45,569 nt of DNA, from positions 1-45,569 of the forward strand of contig JAGWVT010000014.1 of NCBI GenBank assembly GCA_018970765.1, given 5' to 3'. The notes beneath the pieces are model-generated. The model worked only from the letters and a program-made list of their open reading frames with translations. It had not been told where the DNA came from and did not search any database. This DNA is from Actinomycetales bacterium. Its GTDB lineage: Bacteria > Actinomycetota > Actinomycetes > S36-B12. The translations under genes were made by a program, and so were the position numbers. The stretch's first letter is position 1, and each line of letters begins with the position of its first letter. Shown here piece after piece: positions 3,000 through 39,373 of this stretch.

Positions 3000-3074
3000 T
3001 GGGGCGTCGTCTAGATGGCAGGACAGCGGACTTTGACTCCGCGAACCTTGGTTCAAATCCAAGCGCCCCAACCA
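3000..3074 (+). tRNA. tRNA-Gln (anticodon UUG)
   Basis: The gene begins one base after the terL stop. It folds as a standard cloverleaf: acceptor TGGGGCG/CGCCCCA, 3-bp D stem GTC/GAC, anticodon stem GCGGA/TCCGC with loop CTTTGAC (anticodon TTG), and T stem CTTGG/CCAAG with TTCAAAT loop. Discriminator A is at 3071 and CCA is encoded at 3072-3074. It reads CAA, a codon likely to be minor in a GC-rich host. It must be processed out of the late polycistronic transcript. Confidence 0.96.
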
Positions 3075-27304: not shown

Positions 27305-27392
27305 TGGTAGGCGCGGTCGGAGTTGAACCGACAATTCCTCAAGAGGAAACAGGTTTTGAGTCTGCCGTGTATCCCAGTTCCACCACGCGCCC
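27305..27392 (-). tRNA. tRNA-Leu (anticodon CAA)
   Basis: On the minus strand: acceptor GGGCGCG/CGCGCCT (first pair G-T), D stem GTG/CAC, anticodon loop CTCAAAA, long variable arm with stem TTCCT/AGGAA as expected for a class II tRNA, and a perfect T stem GTCGG/CCGAC. The anticodon stem has one A-C mismatch and a G-T pair, so folding is slightly weak. CCA is encoded at 27305-27307. It reads UUG, a Leu codon used often in this genome. Confidence 0.93.
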
Positions 27393-27397
27393 GTGAT

Positions 27398-27703
27398 CTA
27401 CTTGCCGCGCTTGCGTTCAATCTTGTTGAGTTGCGACAGCGCCCACCGACGACCAGCGGTGCCGCCCCAGAGGCGCCAAGCGATGCTGGCCGCGCTGGAC
27501 TTGTCGTCCTTGGGATCAACGCTGTGACGGGCAAAGAACGACTTCATGCGCTTCAGCGTAGACTCGCTCATGCCCTTGCCGTTGGCGAGGTCGCGTGCGC
27601 GTGCGACTCCAACCTCAGTACCGCCGCGACCATGCTTCTTGCGGTCCTCGAGCGCCTTGCGAGCGATCTGCTGAACAACTGACGGCGGCTTAGGGTTTTC
27701 CAT
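27398..27703 (-). CDS. Conserved small phage protein (R/K-rich, DNA-associated?)
   Basis: A 101-residue protein starting at the ATG ending at 27703 with AAAGGAG 7 bases upstream; a longer frame to 27886 is only the shadow of the methyltransferase. Segments VGVARARDLANGKGMSESTL, RMKSFFARH and SSAASIAWRLWGGTAGRRWA resemble a domain also found at the ends of phage portal- or protease-related proteins (from memory). It overlaps the methyltransferase C-terminus by 14 bases, so the two are co-translated. Confidence 0.75.
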   Translation of the reverse strand: MENPKPPSVVQQIARKALEDRKKHGRGGTEVGVARARDLANGKGMSESTLKRMKSFFARHSVDPKDDKSSAASIAWRLWGGTAGRRWALSQLNKIERKRGK

Positions 27704-29570
27704 CGGCAGACTCCTTTGGCGCAGCATACACGGCGGCGAGGTTGTTGGCGATCCAGTTGGCGACGTTGACGGTAACAGCGTTGCCGAGTTGCCGGTAGCG
27801 GGGCGCGTCTGCCATCTGGATGCGCTTGCCGGTCTTGTCGATGCCCTCTGATGTCCAGTTGCGCGGGAAACCCTGCAAAAACTCACACTCCCTGACGGTC
27901 AAACGCCTCACAACTGACTTGCCCGACGCAAACGTTGAAGATGCATCGCGCAGTAATTCTTTGCATGGTATGGCTTCAAACACCCTGACACACTGCATGA
28001 CTTGATCGGATTGTTCTCCGACTCCAATCGAGCAGGCACAAAGCCGTTGTCCTTGACCATCAGTGGATTGCCCCATTTCTGGAACCGTTGATAGTGAAGG
28101 TCGCAGTACCCAAGCCCCTTTTGACGCCGACCGCAGATCGCGCAGGACTTGGCTGGCCTGTGCTCCCGGTTGTGACAGCCTCTGCAAATACGTTGCAAGT
28201 TGCAACGCTCGTTGTTCATGTGGTTGCCATCGACATGATGGACATCCCTTGCGCCCGTCCTGCCACATTTCACGCACAAACCTGATGGCACCAGCTTCCT
28301 TGCTTTCGCGTGCGTAGCCGACCAGCTCATAGCAGCGGACTCCTTGCTTGCAAAACCCGCTGCCATGCAACGCCTGTTGCAGTATTTCCTCTTCAAAAAA
28401 TGAAGCAAGGACTCCAAATCCCCACTCGGTAAACGCTTCCGCTCCAATGCTGTTGAGCAAGTCTCGCAGTGCTTTAACGGCGTCGGTTTCCTTGGCATCG
28501 GCATAGCCACCAATGGTATCAGAAGGCGAACCATTGGTCAATGCCACCGCCAACGTCTGGTGAGTACGCACCGGAGGCTCGCCTCCGGTATCGGCGTTGC
28601 TCATGCCTAGCGAACCTCTCGGCCCCTCCTGCCAATTGAAGGCGACCGCTCCCATGCCGACGCCATCTCGTCCGCCACTTTGGGCACGCAACGAGTTAGC
28701 GGTTCCGTCTTGTCTGTATTCTAGCGTTCTCTCCCCCTCGCGTCCTCGCACTTCCAGCGTGTATGGAATGGCCGTAAACCCATCCGCCCGCGAATAATCG
28801 TGATTGGTTGTCTCCAAGCACGCGGCCTTGGGCGGGACGTGCGTGGCTACGAGGTTGTAGTGCTCGTCACCGGCTGGCCCCCCCCCCTTGGCCCACTTGC
28901 TGGTGACTGCGCCACTTGTTCTAGGGCTGTAGCCAGCGCCAGCGGCAGTTCCTTCCCGCGCTTTTCGGCCCTTCGGAGTATCCCCGCCGCCGCTTTCGCG
29001 GAAAGCCAATACCTGCTCGGCGCGTTCGCCTCCAAAATCTGCGACAAGGAACACTCGACGACGACGCTGGGCGACTCCGAAGAAGCGGCTGTCCAAGACT
29101 CGCCACGCAAGGTCAGTCGCCCCGATGTCTGCCAACGCTTGGAGGACAGCAGCAAAGTCTCGGCCTTGATTGCTTGAGAAGGCTCCTGGGACGTTTTCCC
29201 AGATGGCGAAGTCTGGCTTGCCGTGCTGGGCGCGAAGTTCGCGAATAATTCTAACTGCCTCATGGAAGAGCCCGCTCCTTTCGCCGGCAAGGCCAGCACG
29301 TTTGCCCGCAACGCTGAGATCCTGGCAGGGCGAGCCAAAGGTCACCACGTCCACCGGCTCGAGGTTGTGTGCGCCGATCTGGCACACGTCGTCGTGCAGC
29401 TTGGCGTCAGGGAACCGGAGGCGCAGGACCGATTGCGCTTTCTGGTCGATCTCGCACGCCCAGGTGGTTTTGAATCCGGCACGCTCAAAGCCAAGATCAA
29501 AGCCGCCGATGCCGGCGAACAGGGAGCCGATGGTTTTGCCTATTGGTGGCGCAACCACAGTGTCAGGCAT
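27690..29570 (-). CDS. DNA C5-cytosine methyltransferase
   Basis: Counting from the ATG ending at 29570 (AAGGA 6 bases upstream) the 626-residue enzyme has motif I FAGIGGFDLG (18-27), catalytic PCQ (81-83), ENV (125-127), motif VIII QRRRR (168-172), motif IX RRLTVRECEFLQGFP from 555, and motif X YRQLGNAV. All catalytic motifs are intact. The frame is open upstream to 29717, adding a possible 49-residue extension. The long stretch between the target-recognition region and motif IX is shared, in another frame, with an HNH gene. Poly-G runs of 10 (28878-28887) and 9 (29582-29590) lie in or just before it. Likely protects phage DNA from host restriction. Confidence 0.92.
   Translation of the reverse strand: MPDTVVAPPIGKTIGSLFAGIGGFDLGFERAGFKTTWACEIDQKAQSVLRLRFPDAKLHDDVCQIGAHNLEPVDVVTFGSPCQDLSVAGKRAGLAGERSGLFHEAVRIIRELRAQHGKPDFAIWENVPGAFSSNQGRDFAAVLQALADIGATDLAWRVLDSRFFGVAQRRRRVFLVADFGGERAEQVLAFRESGGGDTPKGRKAREGTAAGAGYSPRTSGAVTSKWAKGGGPAGDEHYNLVATHVPPKAACLETTNHDYSRADGFTAIPYTLEVRGREGERTLEYRQDGTANSLRAQSGGRDGVGMGAVAFNWQEGPRGSLGMSNADTGGEPPVRTHQTLAVALTNGSPSDTIGGYADAKETDAVKALRDLLNSIGAEAFTEWGFGVLASFFEEEILQQALHGSGFCKQGVRCYELVGYARESKEAGAIRFVREMWQDGRKGCPSCRWQPHEQRALQLATYLQRLSQPGAQASQVLRDLRSASKGAWVLRPSLSTVPEMGQSTDGQGQRLCACSIGVGEQSDQVMQCVRVFEAIPCKELLRDASSTFASGKSVVRRLTVRECEFLQGFPRNWTSEGIDKTGKRIQMADAPRYRQLGNAVTVNVANWIANNLAAVYAAPKESADGKP
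27908..28534 (-). CDS. HNH endonuclease nested out of frame in the methyltransferase gene
   Basis: A protein of up to 208 residues on the same strand as, but in a different frame from, the methyltransferase. It shows an N-terminal zinc finger (C23, C26, C52, C56), then the HNH core CVKCG...DVHHVDGN..NN..CNLQ..CRGCHNREH (C87, C90, H99, H100, N108, C117, C120, H121), and two further C/H fingers at 131-147 and 180-198. GGTGG lies 8 bases before the ATG ending at 28534, and equally before an in-frame ATG ending at 28498 (MPRKPTP), which may be the true start. In two hand-counted stretches (38 codons) its GC3 is 24/38 against 13/38 for the overlapping methyltransferase frame, so this frame looks like the older coding frame here. 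Confidence 0.85.
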   Translation of the reverse strand: MVRLLIPLVAMPMPRKPTPLKHCETCSTALERKRLPSGDLESLLHFLKRKYCNRRCMAAGFASKESAAMSWSATHAKARKLVPSGLCVKCGRTGARDVHHVDGNHMNNERCNLQRICRGCHNREHRPAKSCAICGRRQKGLGYCDLHYQRFQKWGNPLMVKDNGFVPARLESENNPIKSCSVSGCLKPYHAKNYCAMHLQRLRRASQL

Positions 29571-29718
29571 CAGACATCCTTGGGGGGGGGTATGTAGAAC
29601 AACTGCTGCGTGAGCTGCGTTGTCGCGAGCCAGCGTATGACATGGATCTCCCGGTGACCTGTTCTGCCGATTGATCGGCGCGGTGATCTGAAACAAGTCG
29701 TACGGGATGGGCTTCATG

Positions 29719-35757: not shown

Positions 35758-35797
35758 GAGAGCGTGTTCGATGGCGGCTACCATCGGATGCGCTCTC
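35758..35797 (+). promoter_or_regulatory. Structured 5' leader upstream of the replication initiator
   Basis: Nested perfect stems: outer GAGAGCG/CGCTCTC and inner CGATGG/CCATCG around a 6-base loop, each separated by 4-base internal loops. It is followed by TGTCTTTTGG. A smaller stem, CCGCTG/CAGCGG, precedes it at 35704-35721. Candidate attenuator, terminator or small RNA. Confidence 0.6.
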
Positions 35798-35842: not shown

Positions 35843-36742
35843 ATGAGTCTCCCTTGGATCAGGATCTACAACGACCTGCCGGATCATCCCAAGAGTGACC
35901 ACTTGGCGGCACTGCTCAACGAGCCTCGCGCCTGGACTCACGTTGTTGAGTTGTGGCTCTGGGTGTCTCGCGTGCGCCCGGATGGGAGCCTGACGGGCCT
36001 GCATCCGGTCGTCATCGCCCGTCGAGCCGGCTGGGGCGGCGATCCGATTACGTTCGTTGACGCCATGCGTCAGGCAGGATTTATCGACGGCGACCAGATC
36101 CACGCATGGGTGGAATATCAGGGCGCGCACGCAAAAAAGCTGGAAAAAGATCGCACCCGCATCCGTCAACTACGCGACACAAATAAAAATGTCGCCGCGA
36201 CACTCCCTGCGACACCCTCCGCGACAGTCGTCGCGACACTCCCTGCGAGCGTCGCGGGGAGCGTCCCCCCGTTAGAGGAGATGAGAGGAGAAGAGAAGAT
36301 AAAGAACAACAACCTTGCGCTTTTCGAAAATCGAAAAGACGCGGCGCCGGTCGAGGAGGTCAAGCCCCGTCGAGGACGCCCGCCGAAGGACAAGTCCCCG
36401 GAGGCTGAGGCCGAGCGCGTGGCTGAGAAGGCAGACGGCGACCGCTGGATGGACGCCGCTCGCAAGCTCACCGGCCTGACCGCCGACGAGCTTCGCTGGA
36501 ACACCGGGGCGTGGATGGGCTTCCGGAGGCAGCGCAAGGCGCGGGGCATGGATCAACTCATGCGGGCGCTCGAGGGCCTGGAAGCCGATGCTTTCGCCAA
36601 GACCGCCGGCCTTGGCTACCTCGTCAGCGACAACGGGATCACCAAGGGCCTCGCCAAGTGGAACAAGGGCGCATCGGGCGTCCATGTCAGCCGTACGGTT
36701 CACGTCGTTGGCAACGGCGAGTCGTTCGACAAGTTTCTTTAG
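35843..36742 (+). CDS. Replication initiator (replisome organiser-like)
   Basis: A 299-residue protein starting at ATG 35843 after GGAGG; the 24-codon extension to 35771 would be translated from the leader stem-loop and is rejected. The N-terminus (LPWIRIYNDLPDHPKSDHLA, RAGWGGDPITFVDAMRQAGF) resembles winged-helix phage replication proteins. A low-complexity linker (ATLPATPSATVVATLP) encodes origin-like DNA iterons. The C-terminal half is helical and basic. Followed by a DnaC-like loader, as in lambda-type O/P modules. Confidence 0.8.
   Translation: MSLPWIRIYNDLPDHPKSDHLAALLNEPRAWTHVVELWLWVSRVRPDGSLTGLHPVVIARRAGWGGDPITFVDAMRQAGFIDGDQIHAWVEYQGAHAKKLEKDRTRIRQLRDTNKNVAATLPATPSATVVATLPASVAGSVPPLEEMRGEEKIKNNNLALFENRKDAAPVEEVKPRRGRPPKDKSPEAEAERVAEKADGDRWMDAARKLTGLTADELRWNTGAWMGFRRQRKARGMDQLMRALEGLEADAFAKTAGLGYLVSDNGITKGLAKWNKGASGVHVSRTVHVVGNGESFDKFL
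36174..36338. other. Candidate replication origin inside the initiator gene
   Basis: GCGACA occurs at 36174, 36197, 36209, 36221 and 36233, the last four exactly 12 bp apart, with a fifth degenerate GCGAGC at 36245. Next come a purine-only-like, AT-richer stretch (about 36274-36312) and a perfect palindrome, CTTTTCGA/TCGAAAAG (36320-36338). Iterons, an asymmetric unwinding tract and a palindrome within the initiator coding region mirror lambda-type origins. No functional proof. Confidence 0.65.
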
Positions 36743-36751
36743 GAGGCAGAG

Positions 36752-37633
36752 ATGCGTAAACTTTCAGTGATGGACGAAAAGACCCTGCAAGGATTTAAGG
36801 ACCGTGCGACCGTGGCGCTGGACATCATCAAGTCCACGAGGCGCAACGACTGCCCGCGTTGCCCGAGCGCCGACAGCGAGGTCGCGGCTGCTTGCACCTC
36901 CAAGCTTGACCCGGACACCGAAACGCATGGCTTTGGCGACGGCCCGATGTGCAAGCACGTTGAGGAGAAGGCTCGCCAAGCGGCCGACGAGGAACTGACC
37001 AAGCGCCGAGCCTACCGGATGAAGCACGCGGGCGTCCCTGACCCGGAGATGATTAAGTACCTCGCCCCGCTGCGCACGATGCCTCGCCCGCCTCGTTCAT
37101 GGTTCGGTCCCGATCAGGGCCAGCGCACCGGCTCCGAGCAGATCATCGAAGGCGTTGAGTCTTGGATCGCCTACCCCGGATGCCACACCCTGCTCATCGT
37201 TGGCGACGTGGGCTGCGGCAAGAGCACCGCCGCTGCTTGGGCGGTCGCCTGCACGCAGGACAATGCCCTGTGGCTGTCGGCACGCATGGTGGACGACCTC
37301 GACCGCTGGAAGACCGTGAGCGAGCTAGCGTACCGCGTGGGCCTCCTCGTGATCGACGATCTGGGCACCGAGCGCGTGACCGAGAGCGGATGGGGAACCG
37401 AGACACTTGGCTCCCTGTGGGTGGACCGCATCGACTCCTGCAAGCGAACCCTCGTGACGACCAACTTAGGGCCAGAGGGGATCATCAAGCGGTACGGCGA
37501 CCGGCTGCGCTCGCGGCTCAACCGGCGCCCCCAGGCGGGCTTCATCGAAGGTGGTGCGACCGATCTTCGTCGGCTCAAGCGGGACTACCAGCAGCGCATC
37601 GGTGAGGCGCGGGACTTTCGAGGGCAGCGATGA
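36752..37633 (+). CDS. DnaC-like helicase loader (AAA+ ATPase)
   Basis: A 293-residue protein. Residues 130-270 form the AAA+ core: Walker A GDVGCGKST (151-159), Walker B LLVIDDLG (198-205), sensor-1 TTN (236-238) and an arginine-finger region RYGDRLRSRL (247-256). The N-terminal part carries C34, C37, C48 and C67, likely a zinc site. It should load the host DnaB-type helicase at the origin, since no helicase gene is visible. AGGAGG precedes the ATG. Confidence 0.9.
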   Translation: MRKLSVMDEKTLQGFKDRATVALDIIKSTRRNDCPRCPSADSEVAAACTSKLDPDTETHGFGDGPMCKHVEEKARQAADEELTKRRAYRMKHAGVPDPEMIKYLAPLRTMPRPPRSWFGPDQGQRTGSEQIIEGVESWIAYPGCHTLLIVGDVGCGKSTAAAWAVACTQDNALWLSARMVDDLDRWKTVSELAYRVGLLVIDDLGTERVTESGWGTETLGSLWVDRIDSCKRTLVTTNLGPEGIIKRYGDRLRSRLNRRPQAGFIEGGATDLRRLKRDYQQRIGEARDFRGQR

Positions 37634-37860: not shown

Positions 37861-38087
37861 CCGACACGGGATGGGAGCGATGGAACGACGTGCGCGAGAT
37901 GCCGGCGCAGGAGCAGTCGGAGATGGCCGACGCCTGCATTGAGCACCTCAAGCGCAAGCCGCAGGCGGCATTCAAACTGAGGACTTACGGCGGCAAGCTG
38001 TTCCTCGCCGTGCGCGGTGACGACGGTACGATCTGGGCGTGGCAAACGGACATCCGAGCAGAGAGGCTTGTTTATGCTGACCAGTGA
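37857..38087 (+). CDS. Hypothetical protein
   Basis: A 76-residue protein from the ATG at 37857 (ATGA). Helical N-terminus (AQEQSEMADACIEHLKRKP), then a strand-rich end (FKLRTYGGKLFLAVRGDDGT; IWAWQTDIRAERLVYAD). Looks like a compact alpha/beta domain. Overlaps the next gene by 14 bases. Confidence 0.65.
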   Translation: MTDTGWERWNDVREMPAQEQSEMADACIEHLKRKPQAAFKLRTYGGKLFLAVRGDDGTIWAWQTDIRAERLVYADQ

Positions 38088-38970
38088 GCAGATTGCGGAG
38101 TTGAAGGCGAAGATCAACGGGCGTCGGGTTGTGGCGAGCATCAGCGGCGGCAAAGACTCCGCTGCGATGAGTTTGTACCTGACCGAGCTGGGGATCGAGC
38201 ACGACCGCGTGTTCATGGACACGGGTTGGGAGCACGACCTGACCTACGCCTACCTGCGCGGGCCGCTGACCGAGAAACTGGGGCCGATCACTTGGTTGGA
38301 GCCCAAGCGCAAGATGGAAGAGTTGGTGCTGCACAAGGGGATGTTCCCTTCGCGCCAGCGTCGGTACTGCACACAGGAACTTAAGGTGTTTCCGATGAAG
38401 CATCACATCAAAGCCCTACAGGACCGAGGCGACGACGTTGTGAATACCGTTGGCATTCGGGCCGGTGAATCCGAGGCGCGATCCAAGATGCCCGAGTGGG
38501 AGTGGCAAGATGGGTTCGATTGCGAGGTTTGGCGTCCGCTCATTCGGTGGAGCGAGCAGGACGTGATTGACATCCACAAGCGCCACGGGTTGACGCCAAA
38601 TCCGCTTTACTTGCAAGGGGCCGAACGTGTTGGGTGTTGGCCTTGCATTTACGCTCGCAAAGAAGAGGTGCGACTGATTGCCATGATTGACCCGGCACGC
38701 ATCGACCGTGTGCGCGAGCTTGAGCGTTTGGTTTCTCTGAAGGCTCACGACAGGGCTGCTGCTAAGGGCGAGGTTCTTGATAACAATCCCTCTTGGTTCC
38801 AGGCTCGAAATGGCGGGACGGGCGAGTGCTGGCCCATCGATACCGTGGTGCAGTGGAGCAAGACATCGCGTGGCGGCAAGCAGTTTGAGTTGTTCGCCGC
38901 TGCCGAGCGTGACGCAGGATGCATGAGGTGGGGCCTGTGCGAAACTCAGGTGGAGAAGAAGGATGAGTAG
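38074..38970 (+). CDS. PAPS-reductase-family ATP-pyrophosphatase
   Basis: A 298-residue protein from ATG 38074. PP-loop VVASISGGKDSAAM (19-32, SGGKDS at 24-29) and IEHDRVFMDTGWEHDLTYAY define the adenylating core shared by PAPS reductases, DndC-like and thiolation enzymes. Cysteines C99 (RRYCTQELK), C188-x2-C191 (GCWPC) and a C-terminal C283/C289 could hold an iron-sulphur cluster. The true substrate (sulphate assimilation, DNA or tRNA sulphuration) is unknown. Its place among replication genes hints at a nucleic-acid role. Confidence 0.8.
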   Translation: MLTSEQIAELKAKINGRRVVASISGGKDSAAMSLYLTELGIEHDRVFMDTGWEHDLTYAYLRGPLTEKLGPITWLEPKRKMEELVLHKGMFPSRQRRYCTQELKVFPMKHHIKALQDRGDDVVNTVGIRAGESEARSKMPEWEWQDGFDCEVWRPLIRWSEQDVIDIHKRHGLTPNPLYLQGAERVGCWPCIYARKEEVRLIAMIDPARIDRVRELERLVSLKAHDRAAAKGEVLDNNPSWFQARNGGTGECWPIDTVVQWSKTSRGGKQFELFAAAERDAGCMRWGLCETQVEKKDE

Positions 38971-39373
38971 CCACAAGCCGACGTGTGCATCATGGGGCTA
39001 CAATCCTTGCGATTGCGGCTCGCTGACGTTTGAAGTCCCCGTGAAGCTAATCTCCGAGGCCAACCAGCGCGAGCATTGGGCGATCAAGAACAAGCGCAAG
39101 AAGGCGCAGCAGCGGGCCGTGGAGTTGACCTGGCTCGCCGGCCGCTACCGTGTCGCGCCTCCGGTGTGCATCACGCTCACCCGCGTCGGCGTGCGTCGGC
39201 TGGACCCGGACAACCTCGCGGGCAGCTGCAAGCACGTCCAGGACGCGCTCGCCAAGTGCATCGGCGTGGACGACGGCGACTTCCGCAAGGTCCGGTGGAT
39301 TTACGAGCAGCGCAAGGGCTCGCCCAAGCAGTACCTGCTTGAGGTCTGCATCCAGCCACTGGAGGCCCCGTGA
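38963..39373 (+). CDS. rusA: RusA-like Holliday junction resolvase
   Basis: A 136-residue protein. The RusA signature is present: RRLDPDNLAGSCKHVQDALA then CIGVDDGDFRKV, with acidic residues D81, D83, D94, D103 and D104 as candidate metal ligands and K90. Preceded by a Cys-rich CASWGYNPCDCGS N-terminus, which is not part of the usual domain. It should resolve branched DNA from Bet/SSB recombination before packaging. Confidence 0.85.
   Translation: MSSHKPTCASWGYNPCDCGSLTFEVPVKLISEANQREHWAIKNKRKKAQQRAVELTWLAGRYRVAPPVCITLTRVGVRRLDPDNLAGSCKHVQDALAKCIGVDDGDFRKVRWIYEQRKGSPKQYLLEVCIQPLEAP

Follow-up and report, generated by a model that had tools for sequence, protein, structure and literature searches.

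Origins of replication that lie inside the gene of their own initiator have already been described in lambda and Stx phages (PMC7466680), in phage SPP1 (PMC6316719) and in RepA_N plasmids (PMC5703833). In SPP1, oriL is located in gene 38, where direct repeats and an AT-rich unwinding element lie inside the initiator gene, and gp39 is the loader (PMC6316719). The Rep boxes of plasmid pSK41 are central in rep, and the ori-encoded linker is dispensable, the protein tolerating its deletion (PMC5703833). There are also precedents for a binding domain that co-varies with the origin, both in RepA_N-type chimeras, of which pPR9 represents a swap of the N-domain together with the origin of a Rep whose N- and C-domains are DnaD-like (PMC5703833), and in the PLE satellites of ICP1, where the N-domain of the RepA_N initiator co-varies with the iteron origin and the C-domain is conserved (PMC8263062). 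In Stx phages, extra iterons lengthen the linker of the O protein (PMC7466680).

The DNA considered here (the window) is a contig of 45,569 nucleotides (45.6 kb), one of 238 in its assembly, which carries genes for a terminase, a portal, a major head protein, an exonuclease, a RecT-like protein and a cytosine methyltransferase. We infer that replication of this phage very probably starts in the linker-coding stretch of its initiator gene, between the two domains of the protein (Table 1). An earlier note on this DNA had proposed such an intragenic origin, and the present analysis supports it: an initiator-type gene contains an iteron array, an adjoining AT-richer tract and a palindrome, a gene for a helicase loader is the next gene, and the iteron sequence correlates with the N-terminal domain. 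An in-frame ATG at 35771, upstream of the start of the initiator gene at 35843, is a possible alternative start. The DNA of the region has no match in the phage collection, and Rfam places no RNA family at the site. Elsewhere on the contig, a PAPS-reductase-like gene lies downstream of the loader gene (38017-38970), a cytosine-5 methyltransferase of 675 aa is encoded on the minus strand (27690-29717), and there are two tRNA genes, for Gln (ttg) and Leu (caa), at 3000-3074 and 27305-27392.

Table 1. Features of the initiator and loader genes and of the candidate origin (window coordinates).
Feature	Position	Strand	Basis
Initiator gene, 299 aa	35843..36742	+	phrog_9474 replication initiation protein, E 7.8e-25
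N-terminal domain (residues 1-105), predicted to bind DNA and to be winged-helix-like	35843..36157	+	AlphaFold model, VIA-align
Outlying iteron copy GCGACAC	36174..36180	+	sequence match
Inverted half-site TGTCGC (GCGACA on the minus strand)	36190..36195	-	read directly
12-bp iteron array, four GCGACA units (36197/36209/36221/36233) and degenerate GCGAGC at 36245	36195..36250	+	TRF
Low-GC purine tract with a period of 5 bp; candidate for the unwinding element	36273..36302	+	lag-5 matches, GC
Palindrome CTTTTCGA-AAA-TCGAAAAG, 8-bp arms and 3-nt loop	36320..36338	.	compensatory pair change in L004/L005
Helical C-terminal domain (residues 186-280), presumably the half in contact with loader or helicase	36398..36682	+	full-length model; function inferred
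DnaC-like helicase loader gene	36752..37633	+	phrog_50, E 1.7e-22

As in the ori of lambda and Stx phages in gene O, the iterons, the AT-rich purine tract and the palindrome of the window lie inside the initiator gene, ahead of the loader gene. The description 'lambda-like' in the earlier note therefore holds for the layout, that is, for the order of the elements and their place within the gene of the initiator, which precedes that of the loader, and does not extend to the protein, in which no similarity to lambda O is detected; hhalign gives the N-domain a probability of 0.1 against lambda O, P22 gp18 and 80alpha, and there is no Pfam match (E 0.1). The iterons of lambda are spaced by about 20-24 bp and those of the window by 12 bp. 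The lambda palindrome (39163-39188) has 10 of 11 arm pairs and the loop TGGC.

The iteron starts given in the earlier note (36174, 36197, 36209, 36221 and 36233) are all correct, and its purine tract, palindrome and ATxx peptide were each located as claimed. The array, for which TRF reports a span of 36195-36248 and a score of 59, contains only four good iterons. In 1000 codon shuffles of the gene, it was never equalled (lag 12, windows of 22-42 bp). Because the GCGACAC heptamer occurs in this GC-rich phage about as often as expected (17 occurrences in the whole window, 14.5 expected), the signal is the array and not the heptamer. From the iterons, the linker peptide acquires the four-residue repeat ATLP ATPS ATVV ATLP ASVA. 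The purine tract has a GC content of 40%, compared with 63% for the gene, and a 5-bp periodicity, a feature absent from the earlier note, with 20 of 25 lag-5 matches, a score that neither 300 codon shuffles nor 300 synonymous shuffles attained.

Initiators frequently autoregulate, and the repeats might instead be an operator through which the initiator regulates its own operon, with replication starting elsewhere. The sites do sit in an early operon, and an operator and an origin cannot be told apart by sequence itself; however, the sites are 330-400 bp into the coding sequence, away from the gene start, and a periodic tract of low GC and then a hairpin come after them, as in lambda, which makes an operator unlikely. 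The GC skew along the contig has no switch at the candidate origin and is uninformative. The cumulative AT skew has its global minimum at 36057, some 120 bp upstream of the first iteron, which is compatible with an origin here but confounded by a switch of gene strand nearby.

The AlphaFold model of the N-terminal domain (residues 1-101) has a pLDDT of 89.9. Its best rows in VIA-align are all weak (5kbj, Z 4.9; 4pt7, 4.8; 4pta, 4.3), as are those of DnaD N-domains (2v79, Z 4.0; 2vn2, 3.7); the profile of the domain has no match among PDB sequences, and Foldseek returns no row for the model at E 0.001. We take 5kbj, 4pt7 and 4pta to be RepA_N-type plasmid initiators (PMC5703833), the VIA-align rows themselves saying only Rep-DNA complex and initiator. 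In fold, the N-terminal domain thus appears weakly to be nearest to DnaD and RepA_N initiators. In the full-length model, which is based on a shallow alignment, residues 117-181 are under pLDDT 50 and are predicted to be disordered, as expected of a linker in which the DNA can dictate the peptide.

The window and pSK41 Rep are alike in that origin DNA, or candidate origin DNA, occupies the linker-coding stretch of the initiator gene, and the best structural rows, 5kbj, 4pt7 and 4pta, point weakly in the same direction. Unlike in the RepA_N plasmids, the gene in the window is that of a phage and is accompanied by a gene for a DnaC-like loader. Pfam does not detect the RepA_N domain (PF06970) in the initiator, and an initial look for RepA_N within a single family was negative. 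The RepA_N genes compared have intragenic repeats at 23- and 15-bp lags, and 0/9 have a tract of 5- or 6-bp period. As described, the SPP1 gp38/oriL system resembles the window in placing an origin, or candidate origin, inside the initiator gene and in having a loader. The origin of PLE is intergenic, whereas the candidate origin of the window is intragenic.

In the proposed mechanism, the N-terminal domain would bind the GCGACA iterons, with roughly one 12-bp unit per helical turn, and the low-GC tract of 5-bp period beside them would melt. The host replicative helicase would then be delivered to the melted tract by the C-terminal domain together with the DnaC-like loader, and the palindrome may also belong to the origin, perhaps serving in priming or in loading on a specific strand.

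Close relatives of the initiator are found in viral contigs: L002/L003 (95%), L004 (80%) and L005 (66%). Between the window and L002, synonymous differences occur in 1 of 62 codons in residues 106-168 and in 46 of 202 elsewhere (Fisher 2e-5), and between the window and L004, in 4 of 60 and 40 of 171 (p 0.004), the flanks having about 22-24% synonymous changes in both comparisons. These codon counts show selection in the linker-coding stretch apparently acting on the DNA and not on the peptide. The earlier note had named relatives that keep the peptide without the iterons as the outcome that would count against an origin; the opposite was found, the DNA being conserved beyond the need of the peptide. 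L004 has one additional 12-bp unit and hence one additional ATLP in its protein, so that extra iterons lengthen the linker as in Stx O (PMC7466680). The palindrome in both L004 and L005 is CTTTTTGA-AAA-TCAAAAAG, in which both arms are altered and pairing is retained, at the cost of an Arg-to-Gln change; this double change is one event common to the two relatives.

The N-domain of L005 is 58% and its C-domain 82% identical to that of the window. Its repeats are TCACTGGTGAG-TCACTAGTGAG units, which have nothing in common with the iterons of the window, and its C-terminal half and palindrome match those of L004. Judged from these identities, L005 is a natural chimera, in which another N-terminal domain with its own iterons is joined to a near-identical C-terminal half. 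Natural domain swaps of this type show how origin specificity evolves.

A search with an alignment of the N-domain (A3) yielded 19 genomic loci and 58 on viral contigs, which, together with named phages, were reduced to 59 non-redundant genes (<85% identity). In the linkers of these genes, iterons, tract and hairpins recur in a fixed order. The iterons have many different sequences and are often 11 bp apart. On average, 14.0 6-mers recur per member, compared with 7.3 in codon shuffles, and the recurrence is individually significant in 39/59 members and not in the rest (p 0.05; here and below, p-values of the survey are optimistic, because the 85% filter and cluster counts were the only corrections for kinship). 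The sharing of iteron 6-mers rises with N-domain identity, also among pairs whose C-domains are less than 30% identical (0.03, 0.03, 0.11 and 0.28 in bins up to 80%). It follows that the iteron sequence is probably tied to, and inherited with, the N-terminal domain and not the C-domain, as far as a correlation can indicate.

The tandem tract has a period of 5 in 36 members and 6 in 9. A lag-5/6 score of at least 17/25 is reached by 90% of members, compared with 2.9% of the 174 ORFs that adjoin them in the same loci (Mann-Whitney 1e-27), and the tract, which starts at a median of nt 442 in the gene, is found in 16/20 N-domain clusters. Its letters vary: 21 of the 53 scored tracts are purine-rich, 20 are A/C-rich and 12 are other, with units in different phages such as AGAGT/AGACC, ACCTA, ACCCA, ACAGT, TTAGAT, CGTCTC and GCTGTT. 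The GC content of the tract is below that of its own gene in 51/59 members, and in 23/59 the tract coincides with the 40 bp of lowest GC in the gene (about 8% expected). Hairpins after the tract have a density of 8.05/kb versus 0.96/kb for stems of at least 6, and 1.91/kb versus 0.06/kb for stems of at least 8. A TRRN tetraloop is found in 17/27 versus 11/328 hairpins, but 14 of the 17 are confined to two C-domain clusters, which tempers any general preference; the loop in the window is AAA. Beyond the survey set, the tract is present in the genome loci L106, L107 (close to the surveyed L080) and L109. The distant relatives L110-L113, of the replisome-organizer kind, are without a 5/6-bp tract, and the layout is therefore not universal.

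These comparisons bear on two further explanations. If phages swap initiator halves at this point, the repeats could be products of slippage and exchange at a recombination joint with no role as an origin, as the exchange in L005 and the different copy number in L004 might suggest; however, the iteron sequence co-varies with the N-domain and not with the C-domain, the tract is in the same place across the 16 clusters, and slippage does not produce frozen synonymous sites, so that this explanation is very unlikely. The idea that a low-complexity linker was selected for flexibility, with the DNA repeats as a by-product, draws on the predicted disorder and on 12-bp units that encode a four-residue repeat, but has next to no probability and is contradicted by the almost frozen synonymous sites and the failure of synonymous shuffles to yield the tract, and the periods in most relatives (5, often 11) are not multiples of 3 and their linker peptides are unrelated.

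The locus is therefore best read as an intragenic iteron origin of a known kind, to which is added a family-wide short-period tract that was not found in the lambda, P22, TP901-1 and RepA_N genes compared. Lambda O has no tract of 5- or 6-bp period (14/25, chance level), nor was one found in P22 gp18 and TP901-1 Rep, and 80alpha gp20 has a weak 3/6-bp tract. No description of the short-period tract was found in the open-licence literature, where absence is weak evidence. We tentatively suggest, at slightly less than an even chance, that the tract is a dedicated origin element that conserves repeat length and not base sequence, for example as a register along which initiator or loader could bind single strands in an ordered way. 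If so, a period-conserved tract would explain many low-complexity linkers in phage replication proteins (RVDQSRVDQ, NLTIPNLT, VAVAVA, PSPSPS). The DnaD recognition element (paired TnnT; PMC10201434) was rejected as the meaning of the tract, since TnnT is not above composition in any tract class. The intragenic-origin reading provides a phage group, in which no experimentally mapped origin was found, with a testable one, and offers a DNA-level explanation for the low-complexity linkers of these initiators, and a sequence rule (iterons, then a tract of 5/6-bp period, then a hairpin, within the initiator linker) that predicts origins straight from sequence.

Several relatives have additional features. 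A C-tract hairpin (CCCCC, short gap, CCCCC, loop, GGGGG), encoding peptides such as TPLPPKGG, recurs after the tract in L007, L015, L022, L026, L029, L091, L098 and L109, and also in P22 gene 18 (L104). In L043, L060, L062 and L067, and also in L092, the initiator contains an in-frame fusion of an HNH-nuclease-like domain (RDGDxCRYCGxxVxW..GGTYDxxDPxG..CRxCN) between the N-domain and the iterons, just upstream of the candidate origin; the fusion may have arisen by homing or may be a nuclease directed at origins, resembling Odn of ICP1 (PMC8263062). L020 (1132-2157), in a genome of the class of the window's host, encodes an initiator of different appearance, in which GTGCACACC repeats precede a (GGTGAA)n tract (GEGEGEGE), and this iterons-then-tract layout with an unlike protein is possibly convergent. 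Finally, a relative in Stenotrophomonas maltophilia (L144, NZ_CP090425.1, 2471-3388) has a CCGTCTCCGAAT-type 6-bp tract in its initiator; the 42-kb replicon is listed as a plasmid, carries NinB and DnaB, and is probably a phage-plasmid.
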